This document shows, piece by piece, positions 7,629-56,264 of a stretch of DNA of 56,264 nucleotides; positions within the stretch are counted from its first letter, which is position 1, and each line of letters starts with the position of its first letter. A program made the position numbers and the translations under genes. The DNA is from a virus: IMG/VR virus record IMGVR_UViG_3300047455_000186, positions 1 to 56,264 of that record. One strand, 5' to 3'. Under the pieces are notes generated by a model. The model was not told the DNA's origin. It did no database searches and worked only from the letters and a program-made list of their open reading frames with translations.

Positions 7629-7652
7629 TTAATTAAATTAAATTAAATTAAA
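7629..7652 (+). repeat. TTAAA tandem repeat leading into groEL start codon
   Basis: TTAA followed by four perfect TTAAA units ends exactly at the A of the groEL ATG (7652). Shorter versions precede the ORF at 12561 (two units, 12547-12556) and the primase on the minus strand (just upstream of 51375). It replaces any purine-rich ribosome-binding site, so it may be a translation enhancer of the A/T-rich kind used by Bacteroidetes, or part of a promoter. Confidence 0.5.
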
Positions 7653-12821: not shown

Positions 12822-13017
12822 TATAGGTAAAGACTATAAAAATGACGCCATGCACTACTCTGTTGGACAGGAAGTGTATGGTGGTCATACTATAGTTAAC
12901 ATTATAGAGGAAGAAGAAAAGTACTCTGTCTATATACAAAAAGGCAATGATGTTATACCCTGGAAAGATTTTAATAAAAATATGGCAATAGCCATTGAAT
13001 ATAATATTGAATACTAA
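12799..13017 (+). CDS. Small conserved phage protein
   Basis: 72 aa. It overlaps the previous gene by 23 nt; no later in-frame start preserves the well-formed N-terminus L-L-R-K-I-S-I-G-K-D-Y-K-N. Then M-H-Y-S-V-G-Q-E-V-Y-G-G and alternating beta-strands (S-V-Y-I-Q-K-G-N-D-V-I-P-W). It looks like a small beta-barrel. The A of its TAA is the A of the next gene's ATG (13017). Function unknown. Confidence 0.65.
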   Translation: MTLLRKISIGKDYKNDAMHYSVGQEVYGGHTIVNIIEEEEKYSVYIQKGNDVIPWKDFNKNMAIAIEYNIEY

Positions 13018-43308: not shown

Positions 43309-43734
43309 TTAGTCGCAAGATTCGTCTAAACGAATAAACCATTCGTCTATTATAGGCAAAAAATACCATTCTTCATTACAATAATTTCCTTCATTTCCTA
43401 TTATAATTTCATCCTGCCCATAAAATCCACCGGACACTGTTAATATTCTTTGCTCATTAATAGTTTCTATAAACCAATCATATTCTGCAGTAGCATCATC
43501 AATAGACCAATTAAATTCATTAGCAGCGTTGATTGGTATAGAGTACATACTGCCCTGGTTTGAGAACTCCCCTGTTCCTTGATTAACAATCCAAGCCCAA
43601 CTTCTAAATGATTTTTGAATCCAAGTCCCTTCGAATATAAATTCTTCTTGTGTTTGTGAAGGCGATTGTAAAATAAGGCTTTCTTCTGTACAAGAAATTG
43701 TAAATACTAATAATAATAATAATAATTTTTTCAT
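43309..43734 (-). CDS. Phage lipoprotein, candidate superinfection exclusion factor
   Basis: 141 aa with a clear lipoprotein signal peptide: M-K-K, a run of Leu/Val and lipobox T-I-S-C with C15. The mature start is C-T-E-E-S; acidic residues after the lipid-bearing Cys resemble the Bacteroidetes signal that sends lipoproteins to the cell surface. The rest is Trp/Tyr/Asp-rich and probably a small beta-sandwich. It lies alone behind the nrdA terminator and ends 1 nt from the endolysin stop. Phage outer-membrane lipoproteins often block receptors (T5 Llp type); function here is inferred. Confidence 0.75.
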   Translation of the reverse strand: MKKLLLLLLVFTISCTEESLILQSPSQTQEEFIFEGTWIQKSFRSWAWIVNQGTGEFSNQGSMYSIPINAANEFNWSIDDATAEYDWFIETINEQRILTVSGGFYGQDEIIIGNEGNYCNEEWYFLPIIDEWFIRLDESCD

Positions 43735-43740
43735 AATTTA

Positions 43741-43775
43741 ATAAAATAAAAAAAGGAGCGCCACCACAGCGCCCC
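43741..43775 (-). terminator. Rho-independent terminator after nrdA
   Basis: On the minus strand GGGGCGC (43775-43769), loop TGTGGTG, GCGCTCC (43761-43755): a 7-bp stem with one G-U pair, then seven T (43754-43748) and ATTTTAT. A textbook intrinsic terminator 19 nt after the nrdA stop (43794). On the plus strand no T-run follows, so it works in one direction. Confidence 0.85.
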
Positions 43776-43793
43776 TAATTAACAACTAACTAA

Positions 43794-45512
43794 CTAACCA
43801 TCACACGCAAGGCAATCTTCACTCATCGCTTGCTGTGCAATATCTCCACGAAGAACACTCTCTGTTCTCGTATAATACAAAGTCTTTATTCCGTTCTTCC
43901 ATGCTTGCATGTGCACCTGGTTAATCCATTTTGGTGTAGCAACGCTTGGAAACGCGAGATTCAAACTAACCGACTGATCTATGTACTGCTGGCGAATGCC
44001 TGCTTGATTTACTAGCTCTAGTTGGTTTATTTCTTTAAAGGTTTTAAATACTTCTTTGGCTGGTATATCATGAGCTAACACTATATCGTCTAGCTCTTTA
44101 ATATCTTGTACACTACCGCCATCAGCAAGTATCTTATCCCATATTTCATTTGTATTTAACTTATGCTTTCTTAAAAGCTTTAAGAGCGTGGGGTTCTTCC
44201 TAATGAACGTACCCTTCGCACTTTGTTCCGTGAAAACATTAGCGGCCCAAGGCTCAATACCAGGACTAACGTTACCGCTAAGCTTACTATTAGACACAGT
44301 AGGAGCAACAGCCCTAAGATGGGTGTTACGATAACCAGTGCCAGCACACCAAAGAGGTTCGCCGTAAATTTCCGCAAGGTCCATAGATGCTCGTTCGCTT
44401 TCGATTTTGATTTGCGAAAATATTTTCCTAGTTTCAAATTGAGCAAGTAAACCTTCAAAAGGAATTCCCTTTTCTTGGAGATACGTGTGCCATCCGAGCA
44501 CACCCAATCCAAGCGCTCGTCCCTTTGAAGCAGAACGAACGGCATTTTCAAAACCTCTAAGTCCTTTGGCCCTTTGAATAAATTCCTCCATAACGCCGTC
44601 AAGAAACCACGTGGCGTCGTATATAAGGTTAGTACCTTTCCATTCTTCATATTTAGCTAAATTTAATGATGATAAGCAACAAACAAAGCTATGACTCTCA
44701 TCTGTGTGTAATGTTATCTCACTACAGATATTTGTCATATGTACTTTTAATCCGTTTTCTTTATATGCTTTTGGATTTGCCTTGTTAGTGTTTCCTTTAA
44801 ACATGATATACGGTTCTCCAGTTGCCTTTCGCTTTCTAAGTAGTTTACTCCATCTATTTCTAGCATTCGCATCTCCTTGTTCAAGCTTACGCATAAACTT
44901 ATCGCCAACAACTGCGCACTGATGTAGATTAAGCGATTGTCTGTTAACATCGCCTTTAGGTTCTCTGATTTCCAACCACTCCTCGAAGTCCTCGTGGTCA
45001 ATGTTGATATTAACACTGGCAGCTCCCCTTCTGACTGATCCTTGATTAGTTGCAAGAATTGTTGAGTCGTATATTTTGCAAAAGGGGACAACCCCGTCTG
45101 ATGTTCCATTACCTGTAATTGTTGCGCCAGCGGGTCTGATTTGATTTACGCCAATGCCAACTCCACCGCCGTGCTTAGCGAGTAGCATCATCTCTAAATT
45201 CTTTTGCCCTATATCTTGTATTGAGTCAGCAACATCAATACCAAAGCAACTAATAGGCAGACCGCGATCGGTGCCAGTATTACTAAGAACCGGTGAAGCC
45301 AAGCATAGCCAGCCGTTCCAGATATATTCAAAAAAAGTTTCCGCCATTTCTGGCTTATATAATCTGCGAGCAACTGTCTTAGCAACCCGCATGTAAGCGT
45401 CTCTCGGTGATTCGTCGTACAATAAATATCCCCCGGATATAGTCTTCTTGTATACGTCGTTATTACCCCATGCCGGGTAATCCTCACCTTTTTTCCAGTT
45501 TTCATTCCACAT
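43794..45512 (-). CDS. nrdA: Ribonucleotide reductase class I alpha subunit
   Basis: 572 aa from the ATG at 45512, whose A is the last A of the upstream TAA; a longer in-frame start reads into the neighbouring gene. Reduces NDPs to dNDPs with NrdB. Catalytic features: L-P-I-S-C (C89), N261-x-C263-x-E265 in M-T-N-I-C-S-E-I, the second active-site Cys in V-C-C-L-S (C278), L-Y-Y-T-R near 550 for radical transfer, and the C-terminal C-L-A-C shuttle pair. No N-terminal ATP-cone, so no overall activity switch; about 190 aa shorter than E. coli NrdA. Confidence 0.96.
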   Translation of the reverse strand: MWNENWKKGEDYPAWGNNDVYKKTISGGYLLYDESPRDAYMRVAKTVARRLYKPEMAETFFEYIWNGWLCLASPVLSNTGTDRGLPISCFGIDVADSIQDIGQKNLEMMLLAKHGGGVGIGVNQIRPAGATITGNGTSDGVVPFCKIYDSTILATNQGSVRRGAASVNINIDHEDFEEWLEIREPKGDVNRQSLNLHQCAVVGDKFMRKLEQGDANARNRWSKLLRKRKATGEPYIMFKGNTNKANPKAYKENGLKVHMTNICSEITLHTDESHSFVCCLSSLNLAKYEEWKGTNLIYDATWFLDGVMEEFIQRAKGLRGFENAVRSASKGRALGLGVLGWHTYLQEKGIPFEGLLAQFETRKIFSQIKIESERASMDLAEIYGEPLWCAGTGYRNTHLRAVAPTVSNSKLSGNVSPGIEPWAANVFTEQSAKGTFIRKNPTLLKLLRKHKLNTNEIWDKILADGGSVQDIKELDDIVLAHDIPAKEVFKTFKEINQLELVNQAGIRQQYIDQSVSLNLAFPSVATPKWINQVHMQAWKNGIKTLYYTRTESVLRGDIAQQAMSEDCLACDG

Positions 45513-45784
45513 TATGTAAAGTATAGTATTGTGTAAGCTATTGCTACGTTTAAATTGACTGCCACTAAGTTCCATTGCTTTGCAACAAATACTTGTGGTA
45601 TTGATATTATGCCGGCAATAATATATACAACTATGCCGGTCGGATCTGGCAGGAGGTGGGGAGCTGTCATCATAAATCCAGTCCCCATATATCCTAACCT
45701 ATTTGCTATCCTCTCGTGAGGCTTTAATCTTCTTTGTCTTACAAGCGCTTTTAATAAACTACGCTTAGTTGTAGAGGTCTTCAT
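45512..45784 (-). CDS. Small membrane protein between nrdB and nrdA
   Basis: 90 aa, TAATG-coupled to nrdA. Basic N-terminus (1-27) with R-R-L-K-P-H-E-R-I-A-N-R-L-G-Y-M-G-T-G-F-M-M-T, then two probable membrane segments (T-G-I-V-V-Y-I-I-A-G-I-I at ~49-60 and V-N-L-N-V-A-I-A-Y-T-I at ~75-85). I recall near-identical small proteins in other marine phages. The role is unknown. Its place within the nrd genes is curious, but no link to reductase chemistry is evident. Confidence 0.7.
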   Translation of the reverse strand: MKTSTTKRSLLKALVRQRRLKPHERIANRLGYMGTGFMMTAPHLLPDPTGIVVYIIAGIISIPQVFVAKQWNLVAVNLNVAIAYTILYFT

Positions 45785-45807
45785 ATATTTCTTCTTCGGT
45801 TATTAAA

Positions 45808-46776
45808 TTACCAAATGTTCTCGAAGTCTTCACCTTCACCAGCTTTCGAATAGTCCGTCGGCCGAACCGCGAAAAAATCAGTATGAGTGACCCCGCCGGT
45901 AAGATGATAGAACCAATCAAGATTAGCCGCTGCATCTTTGTCATATGCGAAGTACGAGCCAAGATCAACATAACCAAGTTCCACCAGTTTTTCATTTGTT
46001 CTTTTCTTTATAAAGTGTTTTAAATCATTTGACTTAATGCCTTCAATGTCACCCATTTCAAACATCTTATCTATATACTTGCATTCAAGTTTTACCATTG
46101 TTTCGGCAGCGGCAATGATATCTTCTCGACATAAATTCAATAATTGATTATTTTCACTGCACATATCGCGAAACAACTTACAGCCCATTTTACTGTGCAA
46201 AGATTCATCTCTTACGCTCCACTTCATTTGCTGCCCTATACCTTTTAATAAATTCCTTAATTGAAAAGAATAGAGAACAGCAAAAGCAGAATATAAACTA
46301 ACCCCCTCAGCAAAAGCGCTAAAAACAGCAAGAGACTTGCCAATACCAACAGAGCTTGTCCCGCCATAAGCAACCAGGTTATCAAACCTTTCAGCAGTTG
46401 CAGGCTCATGGAGAAAGGCTTCATAATTTTCAAGACCAAGTGTTTCATTTAAATAACTATAGGCTACAGCATGTATTGTTTCTTGTGATCCGAACATCAT
46501 AGCCATTTGCTGTATTTCGTGTTTAGGAAACCATGATACCACTTTTTGTGTCCAGTAATCTGAAACAGCACATTCGGTTTGTGCAAAACCTAATAGTATA
46601 TTGCCTACTAGATTCTTTTCTTCTGGTGTTAATTTTTCTTTCCAATCTTTTATATCGCCTTGCATTGGTATTTCAGTATGTAACCAGAATGCTTGTGCTT
46701 GTTTTAACCAACCTTCCGTATAATAGTCAGGATATTCAAATGGTTTGTACGCTACGCGCTCATCAAACAATCCCAT
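45808..46776 (-). CDS. nrdB: Ribonucleotide reductase class I beta subunit
   Basis: 322 aa, the diiron radical-generating subunit. Metal and radical residues: first helix Glu in T-E-C-A-V-S-D-Y-W, then E-T-I-H-A-V-A-Y (Glu, His and the Tyr expected to carry the radical), E-G-V-S-L-Y and R-D-E-S-L-H. The C-terminus E-D-F-E-N-I-W is probably the NrdA-binding tail. The first metal ligand is Glu rather than the Asp of E. coli NrdB. TAATG-coupled to the small gene upstream. Confidence 0.95.
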   Translation of the reverse strand: MGLFDERVAYKPFEYPDYYTEGWLKQAQAFWLHTEIPMQGDIKDWKEKLTPEEKNLVGNILLGFAQTECAVSDYWTQKVVSWFPKHEIQQMAMMFGSQETIHAVAYSYLNETLGLENYEAFLHEPATAERFDNLVAYGGTSSVGIGKSLAVFSAFAEGVSLYSAFAVLYSFQLRNLLKGIGQQMKWSVRDESLHSKMGCKLFRDMCSENNQLLNLCREDIIAAAETMVKLECKYIDKMFEMGDIEGIKSNDLKHFIKKRTNEKLVELGYVDLGSYFAYDKDAAANLDWFYHLTGGVTHTDFFAVRPTDYSKAGEGEDFENIW

Positions 46777-46925
46777 TATTTATATATTTCAATTGCTAAA
46801 TCTATAAACGGCAAATAAAACACATGCGTTGTTTGATTATCCTCTTCATAACTTCTTGCGCCAAATAATATACCTGGATAAAATCCAAATGATACTGCCC
46901 AGGCCGGGTTTTTTTCTTTATCCAT
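46776..46925 (-). CDS. 49-aa conserved phage protein (G-F-Y-P-G-I-L-F-G)
   Basis: Ends in a TAATG junction with nrdB. The sequence contains N-P-A-W-A-V-S-F-G-F-Y-P-G-I-L-F-G, Y-E-E-D-N-Q-T-T-H-V-F-Y-L-P-F and a short acidic end. The G-F-Y-P-G-I-L-F-G motif is one I recall from many phage small genes, often close to nucleotide-metabolism genes. No known activity; short but strongly conserved-looking. Confidence 0.65.
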   Translation of the reverse strand: MDKEKNPAWAVSFGFYPGILFGARSYEEDNQTTHVFYLPFIDLAIEIYK

Positions 46926-47091
46926 ATACTTTTATATTGTATTTATCCATTATTTCTACTAATTCTTTGTATTTTACTTTACCTCGTACGTCCCAGCTCC
47001 ATTTAATAAACTTATCAATTTGACGCTCAGCATACTTTTGTCTTGCTAACCGTTTCGCTTCGAAAGGATTATGCTTATTGTCTCGTCGCAT
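46918..47091 (-). CDS. 57-aa basic protein overlapping the nuclease gene
   Basis: Starts at 47091, 46 nt inside the end of the nuclease gene in another frame, and ends 8 nt into the 49-aa gene. Helical and very basic: R-R-D-N-K-H-N-P-F-E-A-K-R-L-A-R-Q-K-Y, D-K-F-I-K-W-S-W-D-V-R-G-K-V-K-Y-K. The W-S-W-D-V pattern and clean termini suggest a real protein. Function unknown. Confidence 0.6.
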   Translation of the reverse strand: MRRDNKHNPFEAKRLARQKYAERQIDKFIKWSWDVRGKVKYKELVEIMDKYNIKVYG

Positions 47092-47507
47092 TCTTTTTGA
47101 TTTTGTGGTTTGTACAATGTTACATTAGGGAATTGACTCATAACTAATCTTTTAAACAACTTCCAACGCATTGGGAAAGATTCATTAGCTCTGCCTTTTG
47201 TTTCAATTATAAAATCTTCGCCAATAAAATCAGGTGTGTACTTAATAGGTAATATGCGTTTGCATCCTCTGTTCTTATAATCTCCTTTGCCATTAGCTTG
47301 CCTTTCATACACTTCATTATCAAAATGAAAACCAGCAAGCAAAACAAATGTTTCACCTTCGTATTTGGCTTTAACTTTTGCTTTTTTTAAGGCCATATAC
47401 ATATAACGCTCAAGACCTGAAGCAAAGTTGATACCATCATATGATACCTTCTTTGCTTGTACCGGGCCACGCTTTTTGCTTTTTCTTTTATAGGGTTGTC
47501 TCCTCAT
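47046..47507 (-). CDS. T7 endonuclease I-type Holliday junction resolvase
   Basis: 153 aa. PDDEXK nuclease core: E33 in G-L-E-R-Y-M-Y, D93 in K-Y-T-P-D-F-I, E102-T-K104 in I-I-E-T-K-G, with a basic N-terminal arm (R-R-Q-P-Y-K-R-K-S-K-K-R). T7 endonuclease I has E20, D55, E65 and K67 in the same order. It would resolve branched DNA before packaging or degrade host DNA. It overlaps the next small gene by 46 nt. Confidence 0.85.
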   Translation of the reverse strand: MRRQPYKRKSKKRGPVQAKKVSYDGINFASGLERYMYMALKKAKVKAKYEGETFVLLAGFHFDNEVYERQANGKGDYKNRGCKRILPIKYTPDFIGEDFIIETKGRANESFPMRWKLFKRLVMSQFPNVTLYKPQNQKECDETISIILSKRNG

Positions 47508-47751
47508 GGATTTCTATATTTCTTAATAATGCTTCCTGCATTTCTTCCGTGCTTGATTCTTTTAATTTTTGCATGTATAGCACAGCATCCATTAATTCTT
47601 CTTGCAAGTGATTAATCCAAGCAAACAAATTTGATTTGTCATCGTTAAGCGTTACGCCGTACTTTGCAAAGCCTACGTCTGATCTTGATACAAATTTATT
47701 TACAACACGTTCTACAACGGGATCTCTAAACTCTATTTCTTTTTTAGTCAT
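47488..47751 (-). CDS. Small possible NTP-pyrophosphohydrolase-like protein
   Basis: 87 aa, ATGA-coupled to the preceding GIY-YIG/MazG gene. Residues 20-65 read V-S-R-S-D-V-G-F-A-K-Y-G-V-T-L, then W-I-N-H-L-Q-E-E-L-M-D-A-V-L-Y-M (E51, E52, D55), a pattern similar to small all-alpha NTP-PPases of the MazG/dUTPase-2 superfamily. Only part of the usual EExxE...ExxD motif is visible, so activity is uncertain. Next to a MazG enzyme and a ThyA-family enzyme it may act on dNTPs. Confidence 0.55.
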   Translation of the reverse strand: MTKKEIEFRDPVVERVVNKFVSRSDVGFAKYGVTLNDDKSNLFAWINHLQEELMDAVLYMQKLKESSTEEMQEALLRNIEIHEETTL

Positions 47752-48569
47752 AACATTTCTTTTAATAAATCAGTAGCTTGGTCAGCAGTTATTCCTGTTT
47801 TAACAAATGTACCATTGTGCATTACGCCAGTTCTATTTGCTATTTCAACATAAGCGCCATCAATACAGTCTTCTATATTGTAACCCTCTTGAAAAGCTAA
47901 ATTAGTTAATACAACAACCATATCACCTATAGCGTCTTGTATTTCAGGCTTGTCATTGACAAGTAACGCAGCTGCCAGCTCGCCAGCTTCTTCTATAAGT
48001 TTAACATATTGCGTATGTGAATTGCCATTTTCATATATACCTCTTTCAGCAGCCCACGATCGTATTAAATCGAATCTTTCGCAGCCCGTGTCGTTGCTTA
48101 TACATTTTTCTTTTGGAGTATGCTCTAGATTAAAAAAGGCCTCATAGAAAGCCTTATTGTAAATATAGCTTCGATCATCATTGTACATCGAGGTTCTTGC
48201 ATTTTGCATTATCCAGGTTATATGTTCTTTTTTTAGTTTAAACTTATAATCTGGAGTTTCCCATTCTAATCCTATGTTATCCATAAGATTTCCTTTAAGC
48301 TTATTTATAGGAACAGGGAATGTTGTTGTTTGTTCTGTTGGATTTACTCTCATATTTGATTTAAATAAATTTTTATATAATGTTCTGTCTTTTCTGTAGC
48401 CATAAGACTGTTGAAGTTCTATCTCTTTGTTAGATATTAAATTAATATCATCACTTGTAAATAAAACTTCGTATTCGCCTGGCGCATAACCTTGTTGCTC
48501 CGTAACTCTCTTATTAAGATTACGTGTAACTCCGATTTTTTTACCAGGAATGTGATAAATGTTGTACAT
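47748..48569 (-). CDS. GIY-YIG nuclease-like domain fused to MazG pyrophosphohydrolase
   Basis: 273 aa from the ATG at 48569; a GTG start at 48590 overlaps the preceding stop and is not preferred. N-terminal ~1-75: a GIY-YIG-like fold, Y-N-I-Y-H-I then K-I-G-V-T-R-N-L-N-K-R, and a later Glu (E49/E51). C-terminal ~165-255: MazG-like, E193-E194-A-G-E197 with E209-I-Q-D212 and D216 (EExxE/ExxD), which hydrolyses NTP to NMP and PPi. The middle (95-150) is not recognised. It may act on a nucleotide or on DNA containing one. The fusion is unusual. Confidence 0.75.
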   Translation of the reverse strand: MYNIYHIPGKKIGVTRNLNKRVTEQQGYAPGEYEVLFTSDDINLISNKEIELQQSYGYRKDRTLYKNLFKSNMRVNPTEQTTTFPVPINKLKGNLMDNIGLEWETPDYKFKLKKEHITWIMQNARTSMYNDDRSYIYNKAFYEAFFNLEHTPKEKCISNDTGCERFDLIRSWAAERGIYENGNSHTQYVKLIEEAGELAAALLVNDKPEIQDAIGDMVVVLTNLAFQEGYNIEDCIDGAYVEIANRTGVMHNGTFVKTGITADQATDLLKEML

Positions 48570-48576
48570 ATTTTTG

Positions 48577-49398
48577 TTAGTTACCAACACTTAAATCTGC
48601 TTTTATTGCAGGTAAAGGATTGTATTTAATTAGTTTAATATCTTCGGCCTCTGGAATATATAAGTGATTGTTATTGTTAAACAAACCTTTGCGTAATTCT
48701 AATTTAGGCAATACTCTTTTTGGTCTATCTAAATATACTTTAGCTTGTTCTAAATGATTATTATATAAATGGCAATCGCCAAGTTGACCAATAAGTTTAC
48801 CAGCTTTTAAGTTAGCTCCTTTAGCTAACATTTCCAGTAGTAAACCGTACATTGTAATATCGTATGGTAAACCTAAAAATACATCAGCTGATCTTTGCTG
48901 CCACATAAGATCTATAACACCATTGTTTATATAAACTTGAAAAGCATAATGGCAAGGAGGCAATACCATATCATTCATCTCGTGTGGAGCCCATGCGCTA
49001 ACCATAAGACGTCTAGAGTCTGGATTAGTATTGATGCTATACACAAGATTTTTAAGCTGATCTACGCCATTAAAATCACGCCATTGTTTTCCATATACAG
49101 GGCCAAGAGTTTCATCTGTTCTGCCTGAGCGTTCATAATCTGGTCTCCAGTATTTAACACCGTTATCTTCTAAATACTTAAGATCAGTTCTACCCTGTAA
49201 TATCCAAAGCAATTCTGTTCTTGCCGCATTAAAACTTATTCTTTTTCCTGTAAGTATAGGGAACCCAAGTGACATATCATGCTTAATCGTTCTTCCGAAG
49301 ACAGACTTCGTCCCAGTCCCTGTTCTATCCGCCTTGTCAGATCCTCCGTAGAGAATTCCTGCCATAAGTCCTCTATATTCATTTTCTATATTTATCAT
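48577..49398 (-). CDS. ThyA-family enzyme, probable dCMP (hydroxy)methylase
   Basis: 273 aa, family certain. Folate-dependent pyrimidine C5 transfer. Conserved: K52-R53, R25 in D-R-T-G-T-G, S-R-R at 128-130, catalytic Cys C149 in L-P-P-C-H, R169 in Q-Q-R-S-A-D, and G-D-C-H-L-Y for sugar binding. The residue that thymidylate synthases keep as Asn (E. coli N177, in G-L-P-F-N) is Asp D180 here (G-L-P-Y-D-I). Asn to Asp is known to switch TS to dCMP and is found in T4 gp42, dCMP hydroxymethylase. The enzyme may therefore make hm-dCMP or 5-methyl-dCMP, not dTMP. Alternative: an atypical thymidylate synthase. Confidence 0.9.
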   Translation of the reverse strand: MINIENEYRGLMAGILYGGSDKADRTGTGTKSVFGRTIKHDMSLGFPILTGKRISFNAARTELLWILQGRTDLKYLEDNGVKYWRPDYERSGRTDETLGPVYGKQWRDFNGVDQLKNLVYSINTNPDSRRLMVSAWAPHEMNDMVLPPCHYAFQVYINNGVIDLMWQQRSADVFLGLPYDITMYGLLLEMLAKGANLKAGKLIGQLGDCHLYNNHLEQAKVYLDRPKRVLPKLELRKGLFNNNNHLYIPEAEDIKLIKYNPLPAIKADLSVGN

Positions 49399-49654
49399 AA
49401 TAATATTTACACATTTTGTAGTATTCTACCCATATTGTTTTTCTACAATACTTGCTTGGCGATATATTTGGTTTTTCCCATTTTTGATATGGGCCTAAGC
49501 TAATAGCTATATGCCAGTGATCAGTATCGTTTTGTATACCATAAGGCGATATTCTTATGTTGTTTTTAACGCAATATCTATATGCTTTCCATTCTACGTC
49601 GCTAGCTGTATAAGGAGGCATTGGTTTCGCCCGTTTGCCATATAAACTTGGCAT
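49379..49654 (-). CDS. Small conserved phage protein, unknown
   Basis: 91 aa. TAATG-coupled to the primase stop (ATG at 49654) and overlapping the ThyA-family gene by 20 nt. Tyr/Trp/Lys-rich: P-P-Y-T-A-S-D-V-E-W-K-A-Y-R-Y-C, N-D-T-D-H-W-H-I-A-I-S-L-G-P-Y-Q-K-W-E, and a basic end. I recall this kind of protein in flavobacterial phages. No enzymatic motif is certain. Function unknown. Confidence 0.6.
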   Translation of the reverse strand: MPSLYGKRAKPMPPYTASDVEWKAYRYCVKNNIRISPYGIQNDTDHWHIAISLGPYQKWEKPNISPSKYCRKTIWVEYYKMCKYYYDKYRK

Positions 49655-51375
49655 TATTCCCAGGGCATTTTCTCGCCAGCAAGATTAACTTGCTCGTGAG
49701 GAATAAAACAACCGGACTTTGGTTCCCATTTAAAATGAGCTTCAGCTCCATTCTCGCCTAAGTTTTGAAACTTAACTTTAAGTACTTTAGCCTTAACAGT
49801 TTTAGCTTCATAATCTCTGTGAACTAATAACCCATGATAACTAGCATCGTACCATTCACCGCCACCTTTAATATTATACATTGACGGCTCTTCAATTTTG
49901 CCATTGCCATCTTTGTACATCTTAGTTGGGTGCGCTACAATAAAAACTAGCACATCATACTTCTTAGCAAAGATTTCAATCTTAGTTAAGTATTCCATAG
50001 TATAACGATTAACGTCTTCTGTTTTACAATCAACGTCTCTAACCTTATTATATGGATCAATAACCAAACATTTAATACCTTTACGTTTAACAAGCTCAGC
50101 ACCTTTCTTCAATACAGATTCTAACGTGTAGCGTTCCATATCTATATGGAAGTAATTAGTATTACAATGATCTGCTACTTGATTCCATCGATCAGTACCA
50201 ATATCATCTCTACTCGGCATGCCTTGCCAAGTTTTACGCATTAGCTTATGAGCGTGTAAATATGTTGGAACATTTTCTGGCGAAGCGAATGCCGTTTTCC
50301 AACCGTAATTAGCGTTATACCCAACAACCATTTGGTCGACAAAGTCACTCTTCCCGGAGCTAGGGATACCAGTGACAGTAATAAATTGACCAGTGTAAGT
50401 TGAGAATATGTCATCAAAATTTTGTAAGCCAATTTGGAATCCTGGTTTAAAGCCATTACGAACAAAGTCGGTAACTTCGTCTTCAATATCCCTGAACGTT
50501 GTAACATTCTCCAGCGGTACTGGCTTGCTTCGCGAAATACGCTCTGCCAATTTTTCTTTTCCATGCTTTATTAAATATTCGTTAGCGTCTTTGCAATCAT
50601 CAAATGTCGCTATATAACATACCTCAGAGCCTAATCTACGTATTAACTCTGTTTGCAAGGCTTGACCAGCTTCGTCTGAATCTACGGCCAATATAACCTT
50701 CTCTTTGTCTTCGAAATAATCTATACAATTGTCTAAGTAATCTAAGTTGTTAGTATTAAGTGTTGCGCCATTAGGAACAGATATTGCATTTGTTATACCA
50801 GCTTCATGTAACGCTAAGACGTCCATTTCACCTTCAACAATAATACAATATTCCCACCCTACAATGCTATCTATATTGTAGAATACTTTTTCAGCACCCT
50901 TATATAATTTAAAGTTCTTTCTTCCATCACGGTATTTAACATTAGTTAATTCGCCGCCCATAAAATAATTGAACTTTATTACATTCTCGGTTTTACCGGT
51001 CTGAGGCATATATTCAGGGCCCTCCTCAATCTTTAGATCGAAGAGAGTTTCCTGAGATATACCACGAGTTTTAAACCATTCAATTACTTTATCACTTACA
51101 AATTCAGGCCTATCTGGATCTGTTTTAATTTCAGGCTTAACATATATTTTTTCAGCTTTGCCTTTACGTTGATAAGTATGCAATTGAAATGATTTATTAC
51201 AATTATGACAAGTACCGAGACCCCGTTCCCAATCGTAAGAAGCGCATTTTGCTTTTTGATTCTTGGGTTTTCTATCGTGGGAGCACACAGGACATATGCC
51301 CTGCGCCTTACCCTCTTCAAGCTTATGTATATTGAACTGGTCAATAACAAATCCATTGATCTCTGTTGTCTGCAT
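49654..51375 (-). CDS. T7 gp4-type primase-helicase
   Basis: 573 aa, a bifunctional replication protein. Zinc finger C28-x-x-C31 ... C56-x-x-C59 at the N-terminus; TOPRIM primase with E181-G-E183 in I-I-V-E-G-E-M-D-V and D232-S-D234-E in A-V-D-S-D-E-A-G; RecA-like helicase with Walker A G336-I-P-S-S-G-K342-S and Walker B L-V-I-D-P-Y. This matches T7 gp4: primer synthesis plus 5'-3' helicase at the fork. The TTAATTAAATTAAATG leader replaces a Shine-Dalgarno. Neighbours are SSB and recombination genes. Confidence 0.95.
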   Translation of the reverse strand: MQTTEINGFVIDQFNIHKLEEGKAQGICPVCSHDRKPKNQKAKCASYDWERGLGTCHNCNKSFQLHTYQRKGKAEKIYVKPEIKTDPDRPEFVSDKVIEWFKTRGISQETLFDLKIEEGPEYMPQTGKTENVIKFNYFMGGELTNVKYRDGRKNFKLYKGAEKVFYNIDSIVGWEYCIIVEGEMDVLALHEAGITNAISVPNGATLNTNNLDYLDNCIDYFEDKEKVILAVDSDEAGQALQTELIRRLGSEVCYIATFDDCKDANEYLIKHGKEKLAERISRSKPVPLENVTTFRDIEDEVTDFVRNGFKPGFQIGLQNFDDIFSTYTGQFITVTGIPSSGKSDFVDQMVVGYNANYGWKTAFASPENVPTYLHAHKLMRKTWQGMPSRDDIGTDRWNQVADHCNTNYFHIDMERYTLESVLKKGAELVKRKGIKCLVIDPYNKVRDVDCKTEDVNRYTMEYLTKIEIFAKKYDVLVFIVAHPTKMYKDGNGKIEEPSMYNIKGGGEWYDASYHGLLVHRDYEAKTVKAKVLKVKFQNLGENGAEAHFKWEPKSGCFIPHEQVNLAGEKMPWE

Positions 51376-51384
51376 TTAATTTAA

Positions 51385-51456
51385 TTAATCTTCTATTAGT
51401 GTTACATTACCATTACTGTCTTTAGTTATACTAATGTAATCGTTTTCGTCTACCAT
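51385..51456 (-). CDS. Possible 23-aa peptide gene
   Basis: ATG at 51456 lies in the end of the 30-aa zinc-ribbon gene; stop at 51385, 9 nt before the primase start. Encodes a 23-residue acidic peptide containing E-N-D-Y-I-S-I-T-K and G-N-V-T-L-I-E-D, with a beta-hairpin-like D-S-N-G turn. Frame, spacing and lack of frame breaks suit the tightly packed operon, but it could be chance. Tentative. Confidence 0.4.
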   Translation of the reverse strand: MVDENDYISITKDSNGNVTLIED

Positions 51457-51542
51457 TCTTCTCTGCATTTGGGACATATGTCGCAGAAGTCATGCTCCTC
51501 TTCGGACATTTCTTCCATACATATCTCGCATGTGTATAGCAT
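51450..51542 (-). CDS. 30-aa double C-x-x-C zinc-ribbon peptide
   Basis: Starts in a TAATG junction with the SSB-like gene (51544-51540). Four Cys form two C-x-x-C knuckles: C-E-I-C near residue 5 and C-D-I-C-P-K-C near 20-26, separated by an acidic M-E-E-M-S-E-E-E-H. This is a plausible minimal zinc ribbon. Likely a small metal-binding accessory of replication proteins; no family known to me. Confidence 0.65.
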   Translation of the reverse strand: MLYTCEICMEEMSEEEHDFCDICPKCREEW

Positions 51543-51856
51543 TAAAAAGGTAGATCATCTGCAGGTGCCGCTTGCCCCACTGGAGCAGCTTGCATTGGCT
51601 GGTCTTGTCTTGGTGCGGCGGCAACGTTATCGCCGTTAGTCCAAACAACTTGAACATTACCTAAGTAAATTTTCTTTTGTTTAGCTTCGCGCTCCTCTTT
51701 TGATTGTGCCACAACTATCGGACCTTGATTATTGAATTGATCAAGCTCGTCATTAATAGTAATTGTTACAGGTAAATACTTACCCTTCTTACCAGTAATG
51801 ATTTTGTCTGCCGGTATTTCCGATAAATTGATACTCGCTTTAATTATACTTGCCAT
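51542..51856 (-). CDS. SSB-like protein
   Basis: 104 aa. N-terminal beta-rich domain with K-A-S-I-N-L-S-E-I, then K-G-K-Y-L-P-V-T-I-T-I-N-D-E-L and K-I-Y-L-G-N-V-Q-V-V-W; Gln/Ala/Pro-rich linker; acidic C-terminal tip D-D-L-P-F, the partner-binding end typical of bacterial and phage SSBs. It is shorter than E. coli SSB and compact, so a specialised phage ssDNA-binding protein. It lies between the small genes and the recombination pair. Confidence 0.75.
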   Translation of the reverse strand: MASIIKASINLSEIPADKIITGKKGKYLPVTITINDELDQFNNQGPIVVAQSKEEREAKQKKIYLGNVQVVWTNGDNVAAAPRQDQPMQAAPVGQAAPADDLPF

Positions 51857-52035
51857 TATGTATATTGATTTAACTGATTAAACATTCTTTGCAACTGATC
51901 TTTTGTTGCGCCGCTATTCCGCCTTAAGTTATCTACGGCTTTTACATGGTTCTGGTTGGTGTAAAAATTATTTACACTTGTTTCCATTCCTGTTACTGTG
52001 CATACTTTTGTTTGGTTTTTTCTGGTTCTTGCCAT
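51856..52035 (-). CDS. 59-aa conserved phage protein
   Basis: Its TAA shares an A with the SSB-like ATG (TAATG at 51858-51854) and it starts just after the exonuclease stop. A basic N-terminus (A-R-T-R-K-N-Q-T-K) is followed by V-C-T-V-T-G-M-E-T-S, N-F-Y-T-N-Q-N-H-V-K-A-V-D-N-L-R-R and a helical end. I recall near-identical proteins in marine phages beside SSB genes. Function unknown. Confidence 0.7.
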   Translation of the reverse strand: MARTRKNQTKVCTVTGMETSVNNFYTNQNHVKAVDNLRRNSGATKDQLQRMFNQLNQYT

Positions 52036-52037
52036 TT

Positions 52038-52769
52038 TTAAAGGGTTTTATTAATAAAATGATTTGTTGGATCGAAGTCCGGGTTTTGGTAAAACAATTT
52101 ATATTGTTCTGCCGCTTGTTGAACTTTGTCTGCACCTCTTGAATAAAATTCAGGAGAGCAATCAAATATTCCTATTTGGTGTGTATTCTTGTCTATAACT
52201 ATAAACAACATTTCGTAGCCAAATAGTTTACTATAAATGTAAGCTTGCGAGTCGTAATTATACTTTGAGGCGGACCAGCGAAACTTTTCAATGTCACCCG
52301 TCGTTTTCAGATCAATAACTAATCCTTCTTCGTGGTTAACAATATCCGCTTTGCCTTTCCATTGTAATCCTTCTAACTCTGTAATTCCAGGCTGTTCATA
52401 TATTACATCTTTGCCACGAATCAAACCACGACAGACATCGTTCTCCAACATTATGTCTGTCATTAATTCTATTTGATCCACTTCTTTTTGTAATAAACAC
52501 AGCTCACCACCTGAAATCTCTTTATACGCTTTAGTATTCCGTGTTGAACTTTCCACTATCTTATACTTCTTAAGCTTGTCCGGCTCTAGTATTGCAGTGT
52601 GAAAGTAACCGCCAACCAAAAATGCAGATGACGGTTTTAATGGAGTGCCAAGCGCTAAAGGGTTTGTAAGTAAGGTGCTAATGTCGCTATTAGACAAGTA
52701 TTGTTTACCAAACTTGCCATAATAGTTTTCATCGTCTCTTAACTTTTCAATAGCTGCTTTGTTTTTCAT
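52038..52769 (-). CDS. PDDEXK exonuclease (RecE/YqaJ-like)
   Basis: 243 aa. Nuclease signature: H57 in G-G-Y-F-H-T-A-I-L-E, D142 in G-K-A-D-I-V, D153-L-K155 in V-I-D-L-K-T-T, and Y-D-S-Q-A-Y-I-Y after it. This set is typical of recombination exonucleases (exonuclease VIII, YqaJ, DUF3799-type). It would chew 5' ends to give ssDNA for ERF. It follows the ERF gene directly; with it and the SSB it forms a complete single-strand-annealing module. Confidence 0.85.
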   Translation of the reverse strand: MKNKAAIEKLRDDENYYGKFGKQYLSNSDISTLLTNPLALGTPLKPSSAFLVGGYFHTAILEPDKLKKYKIVESSTRNTKAYKEISGGELCLLQKEVDQIELMTDIMLENDVCRGLIRGKDVIYEQPGITELEGLQWKGKADIVNHEEGLVIDLKTTGDIEKFRWSASKYNYDSQAYIYSKLFGYEMLFIVIDKNTHQIGIFDCSPEFYSRGADKVQQAAEQYKLFYQNPDFDPTNHFINKTL

Positions 52770-53306
52770 TTAAAGTGTTGTTAACGCTTTTTCAACTTCA
52801 GCGCTTAGTTTGTACTTCTTTTTAATTGCATCAAGCTTTCCGCCTTTTTGCACATAATCCTTTGCTTTAGCAAATGCTGGATCTTTAGTTGATGTTAATG
52901 TTGCACCCGCGCCTTTGCCGTGGTTATTAGTAGCATCGCTATCTTGGGTGTCATCTATTAGGAATAAATTACCTAACGCATACTTCTTTCCATAACTCGA
53001 CGCACTACCAAACTGCTGAGGTGTTTGCATACCTTTTTGATTAATGTCGACACCAACTAAAGCCGTAGCGTGTATAGCATTTTCGCCATCAGATACAGTT
53101 GCCGTTGTTTGCATTATAGGCATATTGTGGTTGTCGATTAGTTCTTCATTAATCGTTACTGATACTCCTAACTCTAATAGAAAGGGTTTTGTTGCTTCGA
53201 GAATGTCTTCGGCTGATCTGAAGTAGTATTTGCCGAATGAATTAAATCTTGATTTTTTAGATTTAAATTTTGTCTGGATCGTTGCCAGTTTTTCATTTAT
53301 GGTCAT
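52770..53306 (-). CDS. ERF-family single-strand annealing protein
   Basis: 178 aa. The ERF core begins with F-G-K-Y-Y-F-R-S-A-E-D-I, with G-V-S-V-T-I-N-E and T-A-T-V-S-D-G, and then Q-Q-F-G-S-A-S-S-Y-G-K-K-Y-A-L and L-I-D-D-T-Q-D-S-D-A. These match P22 ERF-type recombinases that anneal complementary strands. The C-terminal ~45 residues are a basic accessory domain. Works with the adjacent exonuclease and SSB-like protein. Confidence 0.9.
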   Translation of the reverse strand: MTINEKLATIQTKFKSKKSRFNSFGKYYFRSAEDILEATKPFLLELGVSVTINEELIDNHNMPIMQTTATVSDGENAIHATALVGVDINQKGMQTPQQFGSASSYGKKYALGNLFLIDDTQDSDATNNHGKGAGATLTSTKDPAFAKAKDYVQKGGKLDAIKKKYKLSAEVEKALTTL

Positions 53307-53369
53307 AGGGTTTTCTTATTTGGTATATTAATATAATTACACATTTTTATTTGTATTTAAGTTCATAAC

Positions 53370-54122
53370 TTACAGATAATCAATCACTTGGTTTGCGTCA
53401 GTGTTAGCGATAAGTTTATTTATAGCCTCCCTTTTTATCTGTGAAACACGTACATTTGCAGTGTTTACATTTATATTTAATTTGCCCGCTATATAATTAG
53501 CGGAGTGCTTGTCGCAATCCAAACCATATGATAATCTCAATACTTCATATTCAATACCTGTTAAGTGTTGTTTCATTAAACTTAACAAATAAGCATTGAG
53601 TAAATTTATATTGTATGGCTCAGAATTATCTGGTATTTGAAACAATGGGTTTTCTTCCTCTGTATTATAATTGGCATCTATACTAGAGAATATAGAATTA
53701 AAAAACATAGTAACGATTTTTTCGTCTTTAGGATTTTTACGTATTTCATTTAACTTGTGTTCAGGAATACGTATATCGCCCCGGTTAATATCAATTGCAC
53801 GTCTTATAGCCCCTTTAATTCTTTTGCTAAAAAAGCTTTTTAAAGTTTTTTCAATATCTTCAGAATCAATGAGCTTATCCCATTCTAATTTATCTACCGC
53901 TAACGTTAAACCCTTGTTGCCCTCTTGTATTAAATCATTTATACTTAATACACCAGAGGCTTGGTCAGAGGTCGCAAACTTACGGGCTAAGTTTTCCACA
54001 AGAGGCATGAACTTTATAATCATTTCATTTCTTGTGTAGTAATCATAAAACTTATTTTCAGGCATAGACCGTTTAAGATCTTCTTTGTACCTTATATAGT
54101 TTTGTACATTGTACTTTTTCAT
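53370..54122 (-). CDS. Phage sigma-70-family factor
   Basis: 250 aa. Region 2: I-I-K-F-M-P-L-V-E-N-L-A-R-K-F-A (~35-50) and I-N-D-L-I-Q-E-G-N-K-G-L-T-L-A-V (~61-76), then K-G-A-I-R-R-A-I. Region 4 (~186-240): L-T-G-I-E-Y-E-V-L-R-L-S-Y-G-L, A-N-Y-I-A-G-K-L and V-R-V-S-Q-I-K-R-E-A. It would redirect host RNA polymerase to phage promoters, likely for middle or late genes. It overlaps the upstream HTH gene by ATGA, so the two are coupled. Confidence 0.85.
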   Translation of the reverse strand: MKKYNVQNYIRYKEDLKRSMPENKFYDYYTRNEMIIKFMPLVENLARKFATSDQASGVLSINDLIQEGNKGLTLAVDKLEWDKLIDSEDIEKTLKSFFSKRIKGAIRRAIDINRGDIRIPEHKLNEIRKNPKDEKIVTMFFNSIFSSIDANYNTEEENPLFQIPDNSEPYNINLLNAYLLSLMKQHLTGIEYEVLRLSYGLDCDKHSANYIAGKLNINVNTANVRVSQIKREAINKLIANTDANQVIDYL

Positions 54123-54739
54123 AGTTGTTGATTAAGTAATTCTTTTTCTTTTTTAAGTTCGTTACTCATATTACGATATATAGTTCTTGTAGAACACTTA
54201 AGCGCGTCAGCAAGTCTTGCAACTGTTATTTTAATTTGACTATCATTTGTAAGTAGCATTGCATCATATATTTCGCTTTCAGATATTTTAGATCTACCAA
54301 CCAACTTGCCTACTATAGATAGCTTTTGTCGCATATCTAAGCCAGTAAAATCTTTGAATATAACTTTACGTAGTTTATTAGGCGGCGGTGTATCTAATTC
54401 CATTAATGAAACATCGTATATCATGCTTTCTCTAAGCTGATCTGAAACATTGAATGTTACAAACCCTGTGCGCTTATTACATATGTATTTAACAAGCCCT
54501 GCAAAGGCTTCTTGATCCAGTTGAGGATTAAGATACCATAACACATACAAATGCCATTTAAGGCTCTTATAGGTGTTTATTTTAGCCCGTGAATTAAAGA
54601 GTGTATAGCATTGATGCGTGCCACTCTCGTAATACCAGCCCCAGTCAAACGATTCGGTTGGTTCATCTGTTGTTGGATTTTGCCGGTATATAATACGATG
54701 CTGGTTTAGGTATTTGGTATTTCGGTCGTAGTATGACAT
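54119..54739 (-). CDS. Transcription regulator with C-terminal HTH
   Basis: 206 aa. The C-terminal ~35 residues (I-T-V-A-R-L-A-D-A-L-K-C-S-T-R-T-I-Y-R-N-M-S) form a clear helix-turn-helix. The N-terminal part is unrecognised but has an aromatic patch (F-D-W-G-W-Y-Y) and may sense a ligand or partner. Encoded immediately before, and coupled to, the sigma factor, suggesting joint control of gene expression. Confidence 0.7.
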   Translation of the reverse strand: MSYYDRNTKYLNQHRIIYRQNPTTDEPTESFDWGWYYESGTHQCYTLFNSRAKINTYKSLKWHLYVLWYLNPQLDQEAFAGLVKYICNKRTGFVTFNVSDQLRESMIYDVSLMELDTPPPNKLRKVIFKDFTGLDMRQKLSIVGKLVGRSKISESEIYDAMLLTNDSQIKITVARLADALKCSTRTIYRNMSNELKKEKELLNQQL

Positions 54740-54778
54740 TAGGTTCTTACTATTAATTATATATTAGCTATCGTCGCA

Positions 54779-55000
54779 CTAGTAGATTAAAATCTTTAAT
54801 CTTCTGTTGTACTTCTTTAAAAGCTTTGCTTTATTTTCTATATTGCCACCAAAAATAGTTATGTTTTTATTAAAACTATATTCGCTTTGAAAAGCTGCTT
54901 TCACTATCTCGTTATGCAAGATAGATATTCTATTTTCTAGAAACCTTACGTGTTCCGCTTTTCTTCGTTGCCTTTTTAATTTTTGTATTAATGTTCGCAT
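54779..55000 (-). CDS. Small basic helical protein, unknown
   Basis: 73 aa, starting 13 nt inside the end of the gene upstream on the minus strand. Arg/Lys-rich helices (L-I-Q-K-L-K-R-Q-R-R-K-A-E-H, then K-A-K-L-L-K-K-Y-N-R-R-L-K), likely nucleic-acid binding. Downstream, 38 nt of AT-rich spacer precedes the HTH gene. No family recognised. Confidence 0.55.
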   Translation of the reverse strand: MRTLIQKLKRQRRKAEHVRFLENRISILHNEIVKAAFQSEYSFNKNITIFGGNIENKAKLLKKYNRRLKILIY

Positions 55001-55479
55001 AATTCGTTGATATAATGTGGTCGTATAATTTTTTGCTCATTTTTATTTTTTACTTTATGTTTATCTTGTTCATAATAATTCCAGTATGCAGCTAAGCTAC
55101 TAGGCTCTTTGTATTCGTCAGGCATACATTGAGGTGGTTGGATAAATCCATTATCGGGCATACCTGAAGGCGGGTACATTAAAGCTTCACGACACTTAGC
55201 AATACTAAGGTGATGCTTATTGTATCTAGCTGTATACTCTTTACCTAGTGCAAGCATGTGATCGTACAGCCAATTGTAGTGGTGTATGCTATCACGTACC
55301 CATATAGTACTTGGATGATTAAGGTGTGCTTTCTTGTATGGCACGTTGTCGCCGTTGTTGTATACATGATGTGCAGTGCATAACATTTGCGCCGACTCCA
55401 GAATCATTTTAACCTTATGCTTGTCGTAAAAGAAGCTAGCTGCTTTAGCTGGGTCTGGGTGTAAATAAAATATATTCAT
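54988..55479 (-). CDS. Putative pyrimidine-dimer glycosylase-like protein
   Basis: 163 aa. N-terminus M-N-I-F-Y-L-H-P-D-P-A-K-A-A-S-F-F-Y-D-K-H-K-V-K, L-E-S-A-Q-M-L-C-T-A-H-H, then H-P-S-T-I-W-V-R-D-S, a 'P-P-Q-C-M-P-D-E-Y' region and W-N-Y-Y. This is the phage group often annotated as pyrimidine dimer DNA glycosylase (Pyr_excise/T4 endonuclease V-like). It would remove UV lesions from phage DNA. Catalytic residues were not verified. It begins in a TAATG junction with a 35-aa gene. Confidence 0.65.
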   Translation of the reverse strand: MNIFYLHPDPAKAASFFYDKHKVKMILESAQMLCTAHHVYNNGDNVPYKKAHLNHPSTIWVRDSIHHYNWLYDHMLALGKEYTARYNKHHLSIAKCREALMYPPSGMPDNGFIQPPQCMPDEYKEPSSLAAYWNYYEQDKHKVKNKNEQKIIRPHYINELCEH

Positions 55480-55586
55480 TAAAACCTTTTGTTGTTAACT
55501 CTATTATAATGTTTGTCTAATAATAGGTGAGCGACTTCCTCGCTTATCATATTTTCGTTGTATAGTTGCCATATTAATTTACTCAT
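55479..55586 (-). CDS. 35-aa peptide gene
   Basis: Begins 8 nt before the end of the ligase gene and ends sharing an A with the next ATG (TAATG at 55481-55477). Encodes an Asn/Leu-rich helical peptide with M-S-K-L-I-W-Q-L-Y-N-E-N-M and E-E-V-A-H-L-L-L-D-K-H-Y-N. Perfectly nested in the coupled operon, which supports its being real. Function unknown. Confidence 0.55.
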   Translation of the reverse strand: MSKLIWQLYNENMISEEVAHLLLDKHYNRVNNKRF

Positions 55587-56264
55587 AGTTACGTAGTGTT
55601 TTATACAGAGGATGACGATAGCTACCAGCTTTTGTACGTTCAAAGTATGTAAACGTAGCGCGCTTGCCTATATAATCATGTACATTGTCTAGAATGTATC
55701 GACGATCATCAAAGTTGTAGCCTTTGCCGATAGGGCAGCCAAACTCAACGCCATCGTCATCTTGCATAAGAAACTTACCGATTAGACCGGTAAATTTACC
55801 TTTGCCCGCTTCGTAGCCAACAATAGTAGCTTCGGTGTCGTGAAAGTCTTTAAACTTTTGAAGGTTGTAAGAACGTTTGCATTCATACGGTTTGTCAAGA
55901 CGCAGTATAGAACCCTCGTAGCCATTAGCTAAGAAAGCATCGTTGTGCATGTTTAAAGCCTCTTCGTATTTATCAACTAGGTATGTGTTAGTAAATTTAA
56001 CACAATAGCTTTCCGGCAATTCATTTTTAAGCCACGTAATTCGGCTAGAAAATTTAGCACGGCGTAGCGCAGGACCAGGAATGTAGTCGTAGCAATGAAA
56101 CTGCACATAGCCGGCAGACTCAACTCGATCGCCCTCGGAGGGTTTAGTCTTACGAACAAGTGAAATGATTTTTTCGAAATCATCTTTTAGGTCGTGGTTG
56201 TATAGTTCGCCGTCAAGTATCACGTCAGGATACGTTTCGAAGAACGGTTCGAGGTTTGCGGTAA
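55579..56264 (-). CDS. ATP-dependent DNA ligase, 5' end cut by window
   Basis: Coding reads through the right window edge: codons upstream of the GTG at 56223 translate N-L-E-P-F-F-E-T-Y-P-D, which continues the protein, so the gene starts outside and the GTG is not the start. Visible motifs: adenylation motif III D-G-E-L-Y-N-H, motif IV Y-E-G-S-I-L-R, motif V L-Q-K-F-K-D-F, and an OB-fold C-terminal part with G-K-G-Y-N-F-D-D-R. It seals nicks in phage DNA replication. Motif I (Lys) would be beyond the edge. Confidence 0.88.
   Translation of the reverse strand, partial: TANLEPFFETYPDVILDGELYNHDLKDDFEKIISLVRKTKPSEGDRVESAGYVQFHCYDYIPGPALRRAKFSSRITWLKNELPESYCVKFTNTYLVDKYEEALNMHNDAFLANGYEGSILRLDKPYECKRSYNLQKFKDFHDTEATIVGYEAGKGKFTGLIGKFLMQDDDGVEFGCPIGKGYNFDDRRYILDNVHDYIGKRATFTYFERTKAGSYRHPLYKTLRNYE

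Follow-up and report, generated by a model that had tools for sequence, protein, structure and literature searches.

The window analysed here, a 56,264-base IMG/VR virus record, encodes a ThyA-family protein (ThyD) that probably modifies dCMP at C5, yielding a product that is built into phage DNA. Judged from sequence comparisons, ThyD very probably acts on dCMP, and there is a good likelihood that the virion DNA of phages carrying it contains a modified cytosine. The window terminates within a DNA ligase gene and, therefore, part of the genome is missing. The features that concern us are as follows.

43794..45575, minus strand: NrdA-like ribonucleotide reductase large subunit (profile/annotation)
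45808..46776, minus strand: NrdB, ribonucleotide reductase small subunit, dNTP supply (profile/annotation)
47046..47507, minus strand: DUF1064 / resolvase-like nuclease (77/80 ThyD loci)
47488..47751, minus strand: 87-aa conserved protein with the motif R..G..KYG..W..H.QEE..DA..Y (78/80 ThyD loci)
47748..48590, minus strand: GIY-MazG, a 280-aa protein with a GIY-YIG-type N-domain (T5orf172/MUG113) and a MazG pyrophosphohydrolase domain (profiles; GTG start as called)
48577..49398, minus strand: ThyD, ThyA-family predicted dCMP C5-methylase of 273 aa (ATG start, Pfam, fold, Cys149)
48859..48861, minus strand: Asp180 codon GAT, equivalent of Asn177 of E. coli thymidylate synthase (TS) (alignment; Asp in 81/81)
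48952..48954, minus strand: catalytic Cys149 codon (81/81)
49379..49654, minus strand: 91-aa conserved protein between primase-helicase and ThyD (63/80 loci at E of at most 1e-5)
49654..51375, minus strand: primase-helicase, the upstream border of the slot described below (77/80 ThyD loci)

ThyD has the marks of the TS superfamily, namely a Pfam domain well above its cut-off (PF00303, 281.5 bits over residues 7-271, cut-off 24.3), the TS fold and the catalytic Cys; it also matched TIGR03284 at 275.1 bits. The standard fold claimed in the sequence-only reading was recovered in the predicted model (mean pLDDT 90.2), whose top VIA-align match was Mtb ThyA (4fog; Z 36.5, rmsd 1.3 over 258 residues). 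What ThyD lacks is the Asn that true TS enzymes have at E. coli position 177. Read on the minus strand from 48880 to 48850, the gene contains ggt tta cca tac gat att, codon 180 being GAT (48861-48859), and in the alignment D180 pairs with N177 of E. coli TS. Asp occupies this position in all 81 family members, that is, the window and the best 80 of 279 relatives from IMG/VR viral contigs, which were fetched independently of the Asp. Also invariant in these 81 are C149, R25, E62, W84, Y102, R129, R130, R169, S170, D172, H210 and Y212. The Pfam match, the codon, the E. coli alignment and the family conservation together confirm the earlier claim of a ThyA-family reading frame with Asp at the TS Asn position, and the Asp said to stand at the same place in T4 gp42 was seen in the alignment as well. 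A broader set comprised 248 distinct sequences of at least 220 aa; the position holds D in 141, N in 105 and a gap in 2, a ratio that carries no meaning because the set was partly gathered by D- and N-patterns. Within it, every sequence more than 50% identical to the window ThyD that has a residue there has D, and the best sequence with N is 47.1% identical. ThyD has matches in 3,833 records of known phages, and all are below 60% identity.

An enzyme tree was built without the Asp/Asn column from 77 of the 248 rows, namely the window, one in eight of the 114 family rows, each of the 26 remaining Asp rows and 35 of the 105 Asn rows. The ThyD family forms one group on it (16 rows, all Asp, support 100) and the nearest group consists of three Asn-type TS, whose loci hold 0 of the 19 other window genes tried; T4 gp42 and the Xp12-group proteins are distant. 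Given that ThyD nests among TS enzymes and far from gp42, the Asp would have arisen within TS, apart from gp42. As a correction to the sequence-only reading, ThyD does not group with T4 gp42, and close kinship of the two is ruled out by the active-site residues together with the tree. That reading had also taken clustering with true TS enzymes as a sign against its proposal. Such clustering is what we found with regard to kinship, but it leaves the dCMP function unrefuted, since it was within the TS tree that the Asp arose.

Cytosine modification is backed by two lines of evidence independent of each other, the first being the genomic position of ThyD. The gene lies in an operon-like order (primase-helicase, 91-aa protein, ThyD, GIY-YIG/MazG, 87-aa protein, DUF1064, NrdB, NrdA) and overlaps its neighbors by 14 bases (GIY-MazG) and 20 bases (91-aa gene). 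It falls between primase-helicase and GIY-MazG in 76/76 loci with both flanks, and in related phages this slot is occupied by ThyD, by another TS-like enzyme that we call DY (one such gene is at L506:5044-5817) or by a gp42-like enzyme. The sample not selected by enzyme comes from relatives whose terminase is 77-96% identical to that of the window. Of 19 longer records searched, three carry a PF00303 gene, and these three, the only ones reaching the primase-helicase, hold the three different enzymes: ThyD in G008 (locus L016), DY in G082 and the gp42-like enzyme in G089. The DY enzyme of G082 is Asp-type, has Tyr at 147 and is about 35% identical to ThyD; the gp42-like enzyme of G089 (L493:18504-19205) has SNY, FDTPC and Asp177. 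Further loci were gathered by enzyme search, 80 gp42-like (of 573 relatives) and 40 DY. The gp42-like enzyme stands between primase-helicase and GIY-MazG in 80/80 fetched loci and carries the published hydroxymethylase signature (Asp177, Asp at Cys-3, Ser two before Tyr) in 80/80, while DY stands between the same flanks in 34/34 loci holding both and has Asp in 39/40. The one exception (L673) has Asn and His147, resembles ThyD more than DY and comes from a 12.8-kb locus in which none of the further window genes tried was found. Because the gp42-like and DY loci were collected by enzyme and not by slot, this sampling could overlook an Asn-type TS there.

Exactly one PF00303 gene was found in 45/45 long records (11 ThyD, 20 gp42-like and 14 DY), where the single stop within each gp42-like PF00303 match is taken as the end of the shorter gene, as in G089; the same holds for 34/34 relatives of at least 50 kb. 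A tree of the primase-helicase, made from 152 of 201 possible rows (those with at least 380 residues aligned) by a quick method that warned of long-branch joining, requires 12 changes of slot occupant, and its well-supported branches call for at least 10 changes of the ThyD label. This exchange with two Asp-type enzymes, one of them bearing a full hydroxymethylase signature, supports the earlier suggestion of dCMP specificity and modified cytosine.

Could ThyD still be a thymidylate synthase that makes dTMP, with Asp180 tolerated and the enzyme replacing the ThyX of relatives such as MW202828? Its overall kinship with TS and its otherwise largely intact TS residues would fit, and a TS gene is a frequent companion of ribonucleotide reductase in phages. 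Because MW202828 has a dTMP-making ThyX (L324:9459-10133; PF02511, 105.2 bits), one could also conceive of displacement for dTMP supply. We nevertheless regard this as highly improbable. The Asp is fixed in 81/81 sequences, the other slot occupants are Asp-type too, and 20/20 relatives by the MW202828 terminase (17-65 kb, many of them fragments) have neither PF00303 nor ThyX. Moreover, a TS engineered from Asn to Asp is a dCMP methylase (Liu and Santi 1992, as cited in PMC8670742). The synthesis of dTMP is, in short, hard to fit as the job of the slot because distant enzymes sharing the Asp, one of which has the signature of a hydroxymethylase, exchange there.

The second line of evidence comes from restriction palindromes. 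The window terminase shows 62% identity to its counterpart in the spring-water phage genome MW202828 and 47% to the terminase of the Flavobacterium Elemovirus; we infer a Bacteroidetes host for the window phage. The window also has genes for GroEL (7652-9205, phrog_5725) and a GroES-like protein (13017-13607, phrog_13932), and chaperonin genes are annotated in MW202828 and Elemovirus as well. We counted the 12 C-containing 4-base palindromes in up to 12.8 kb per locus, in loci of at least 9 kb only, and called a palindrome avoided if it occurred at no more than one quarter of its first-order expectation, where that expectation was at least 8. This kept 46/80 ThyD, 65/80 gp42-like and 25/40 DY loci (24/39 without L673), as well as 47/80 MW202828-terminase, 32/44 Elemovirus-terminase and 38/80 window-terminase loci.

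At least one palindrome is avoided in 0/46 ThyD, 3/65 gp42-like and 2/24 DY loci (2/25 including L673) and in 4/38 loci of window-terminase relatives, as against 43/47 MW202828-terminase and 26/32 Elemovirus-terminase loci, so that 4/47 and 6/32 of the latter two types show no avoidance. Pooled, 5/135 Asp-type slot loci compare with 69/79 comparison loci, for which the Fisher value of 1e-38 overstates independence because the loci are related. At a one-tenth cut-off the figures are 0/135 versus 63/79. At a laxer cut-off (O/E 0.4) they are 16/46 ThyD, 19/65 gp42-like and 13/24 DY loci versus 47/47 and 31/32, and the contrast thus rests on strong avoidance because many slot loci score at the laxer cut-off too. 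In six metagenomes with both kinds, 0/7 Asp-type slot loci and 8/8 comparison loci avoid palindromes. A first comparison (0/46 versus 44/47) had set early-gene against terminase regions, and was then repeated with terminase regions as well as with records that were complete or almost so. Among whole genomes of about 60 kb, MW202828 (L083/L324) has no CCGG or GATC, and elemoD (L084/L325) no CCGG, CGCG, GGCC or CATG; in the whole-record scan the window, G082 (40 of 46 kb) and G089 avoid none. Non-palindrome controls were avoided in 1/4,478 tests for ThyD, 16/3,635 for window-terminase and 18/4,564 for MW202828-type loci. As small positive controls, T4 (10 kb) avoids none and the Xp12-like DoCa10 (12.9 kb) avoids one, CTAG.

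No TS-like gene was seen within the fetched stretches of the MW202828- and Elemovirus-terminase loci, and whole longer records contain PF00303 in 0/20 MW202828-type and 1/15 Elemovirus-type cases (34/35 without). The exception, G144 (L690, G144:C1:41000-44500), has a distant TS-like gene that is Asn-type by profile alignment; its locus L552 avoids GGCC, GCGC and GATC, which fits the contrast. The natural reading of the lost avoidance, as these data suggest, is a general protection of C-containing sites in the slot phages, and the weak or absent avoidance in them versus the strong avoidance in related groups lends further support to the proposed modified cytosine. The protection is not attributable to ThyD alone because the GIY-MazG and 87-aa neighbors are common to the protected group.

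It may be that the lost avoidance has another cause, such as restriction-poor hosts or some other anti-restriction gene, and is uninformative on ThyD. The contrast is a single one at clade level, further group-specific genes co-occur, and in other Asp-type lineages outside the group 8/13 loci (those of at least 6 kb among 23) avoid palindromes, so Asp177 alone does not predict protection. Asn-type TS loci, an unmatched mixture, avoid in 32/67 cases, and about half of these loci without Asp thus show none. We consider another cause unlikely, given that the contrast holds within the same samples (0/7 versus 8/8), that it spans three different slot occupants and that the window (ThyD), G082 (DY, 40 of 46 kb) and G089 (gp42-like) records all lack avoidance. 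One of the palindrome-avoiding Asp177 lineages (L107, L184, L140, L093) has a PCCY motif, with a Cys before the catalytic Cys, along with Tyr147 and Phe165.

The lost avoidance also bears on the idea that 5-methyl-dCMP serves solely as a precursor of dTMP, being converted by a host dCMP deaminase, and that the virion DNA stays unmodified. No phage dCMP deaminase would then be necessary, and the PF00383 family is common in bacteria (12/14 control genomes). This route would, however, explain neither the lost avoidance nor the fact that ThyD exchanges with a gp42-like hydroxymethylase, from whose product no dTMP would arise, and we give it very little credence. Incorporation of a modified cytosine into phage DNA remains the reading that we favor.

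Which modification ThyD would introduce is a narrower question, the sequence-only reading having allowed either 5-hydroxymethyl- or 5-methyl-dCMP. The signature of the T4 hydroxymethylase (dCH) comprises Asp145 (Cys-3), Ser94-x-Tyr96 and the absence of a C-terminal tail, and D145N alone kills its activity (PMC6400193). ThyD shares the Asp at position 177 with gp42 but departs from the remainder of the signature: (i) Cys-3 is Leu146 in 81/81, as in TS, where T4 gp42 has Asp and where the gp42-like slot enzymes, as a positive control, have Asp in 80/80; (ii) the residue two before Tyr102 is Pro in 78/81 and Lys in 3/81, not the Ser/Thr of the Ser/Thr-x-Tyr motif, which is Ser in 80/80 gp42-like enzymes; and (iii) the C-terminal TS tail IKAxLSV is kept, with Ile265, Ala267 and Val271 each in 81/81. 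The residues expected of an engineered N177D-type enzyme are present among the 81 as Leu (143) in 81, Val (93) in 80 and Ile in 1, Tyr (94) in 81 and Trp (80) in 81, with the tail kept. Methylation is favored over hydroxymethylation because ThyD is without the hydroxymethylase signature and keeps the methyl-transfer parts of TS. Thus the methyl half of the earlier claim gains and the hydroxymethyl half loses ground; given dCMP activity, we lean toward a methyl product.

ThyD could conceivably be a dCMP hydroxymethylase in spite of its TS-like residues, a possibility that lies inside our main claim. It shares its genome position with an enzyme bearing the hydroxymethylase signature, the occupant of the slot has changed 12 times, and the Glu58 and Trp80 equivalents are retained in ThyD and the gp42-like enzymes alike. 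We hold this to be rather unlikely in view of the Leu at Cys-3, the Pro or Lys in place of Ser before Tyr102 and the tail with Val271, and given that the loss of Asp145 alone abolishes T4 dCH activity (PMC6400193). The role of the slot does not need a hydroxyl, either, because 5-methylcytosine (5mC) protects DNA too.

The neighbors of ThyD offer hints as to how such a pathway might work. GIY-MazG was found in 79/80 ThyD, 80/80 gp42-like and 39/40 DY loci and is predicted to be a dNTP (perhaps dCTP) pyrophosphohydrolase. All 27 of 27 family members match PF03819 (E of at most 0.1, best 3.7e-8) and 18/27 match T5orf172; the window copy scores 21.4 bits against PF03819, just below the cut-off of 22. 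A PDB profile match is to the MazG 1vmg (E 4.1e-8), no Foldseek match was obtained at E of at most 0.001, and no match among 516 phage records spans as much as 80% of the fusion protein. A gp56-like dCTPase adjoining ThyD was considered and rejected, since the profiles give GIY-YIG plus MazG for this 280-aa neighbor. One can only speculate that GIY-MazG is directed against dCTP or against DNA lacking the modification. The 87-aa protein was considered as MazG-like, which is unsupported by Pfam or PDB, there being no convincing match in either. Its best match precedes ThyD, and does not follow GIY-MazG, in L033, L034, L038-L043, L048, L054, L062, L065-L068, L073 and L077. ThyX and dCMP deaminase matches were each found in 0/35 records and DHFR in 0/22. 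Carbamoyltransferase is a known partner on contigs with 5-hydroxymethylcytosine (5hmC); PF16861 was found in 0/23 other Asp records and 0/45 slot records. No DNA polymerase was recognized among the scanned ORFs of window 43309-56264 and the adjoining stretch of the relative G001 (L326), and no glycosyltransferase in ten G089 ORFs without a window homolog (long fibre-like ORFs left out). Two further genes came to light, one for a thioredoxin-like protein in the gp42-like record G089 (L493:11341-11784; PF00085, E 4.7e-7) and one for a pyrimidine-dimer glycosylase-like protein in the window (54988-55479; PF03013, E 1.3e-7; phrog_624).

A plausible scenario, modeled on TS chemistry, is that Asp180 would recognize the 4-amino group and N3 of dCMP, that Cys149 would attack C6 and that methylene-tetrahydrofolate would donate C7. 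Hydride reduction would then give 5-methyl-dCMP, as opposed to hydration to 5-hydroxymethyl-dCMP, reduction being preferred in view of the retained TS-type Leu146, Pro-Val-Tyr and C-terminal tail. The 5-methyl-dCMP would be phosphorylated by host kinases (no deoxynucleotide kinase was seen among the phage ORFs scanned) and built into DNA in place of cytosine, possibly aided by hydrolysis of dCTP by the neighboring MazG-domain protein. The resulting DNA would be expected to withstand many host restriction enzymes and, consequently, the phages would no longer need to lose restriction sites. One observation that stands against the modification reading is that His147 is kept in 81/81 ThyD sequences (the window and the best 80 of 279 relatives), though position 147 ranked with 177 in PMC8670742.

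Our working model, to which we would give an even chance in its entirety, is that an aquatic phage lineage keeps a slot for cytosine modification that has been repeatedly refilled (by ThyD and DY methylases and by a gp42-like hydroxymethylase), that close relatives accordingly have 5mC or 5hmC DNA, and that this shield lifts a selection against restriction sites to which sister phages lacking an Asp-type enzyme are still strongly subject. The laboratory Asn-to-Asp TS would then have a natural counterpart in ThyD. That Asn to Asp switches TS to dCMP, and that this goes with modified cytosine in environmental phages, has already been published (PMC8670742). The ThyD family, the slot exchange and the palindrome signal were absent from the literature searched, which comprised open-licence PMC papers only. 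If the model is true, there is a natural family of TS-type dCMP methylases with which to study a one-residue choice of pyrimidine, phages exchange base-modification enzymes of differing chemistry at one operon position, and lost palindrome avoidance is a sequence-only signal with which to predict modified genomes of uncultured viruses. The question of whether Asp177 alone marks modified-cytosine phages also becomes directly testable, the other Asp lineages suggesting that it may not. ThyD phages form a widespread aquatic group, and a modified cytosine would shield their DNA from bacterial restriction enzymes.

There is precedent for a TS-like enzyme acting on cytosine nucleotides. One close parallel is the engineered TS: N229D of L. 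casei and N177D of E. coli TS are dCMP methylases (Liu and Santi 1992; Hardy and Nalivaika 1992, both as cited in PMC8670742). They share with ThyD a single Asn-to-Asp exchange in the base pocket in otherwise TS-like chemistry, but ThyD occurs in nature, has become fixed throughout a large family of phages and differs by many further substitutions, being about 41% identical to E. coli TS in a structural alignment. According to the same paper, Asn to Asp redirects TS to dCMP, Asp177 marks the TS homologs on modified-cytosine contigs, and positions 147 and 177 are the two residues differing most between modified and unmodified contigs. The MetaGPA Asp177 homologs described there resemble ThyD in having the Asp in environmental phages, whereas ThyD retains His147.

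The DNA of Xp12 has 5mC for all C (PMC9206674) and a dCMP methylase from Xp12 is named in PMC5175136. We infer a link between this 5mC and the type of gene found in DoCa10 and QDWS359. The TS-like protein of these Xp12-group phages shares Asp177 (GLPYD) with ThyD, and its gene is likewise adjoined by an annotated HAD hydrolase/nucleotide pyrophosphohydrolase. It is 25-27% identical to ThyD, with long branches between the two, and is not of the same clade; unlike ThyD, it has Asn three residues before the catalytic Cys, Ser two residues ahead of Tyr, Pro147 and no TS-type tail, and a dCMP deaminase gene adjoins it. T4 gp42 has Asp at 177 and the catalytic Cys, Glu58, His207 and Tyr209 equivalents in common with ThyD, but the two are 24% identical and ThyD is without the Asp145 and Ser94 equivalents and retains the C-terminal tail. 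Finally, the CMP hydroxymethylase MilA (PMC5175136) has an Asp in the base pocket, as does ThyD, but favors the ribose form via Lys and Ala, where ThyD carries the Arg and Ser of deoxynucleotide enzymes.
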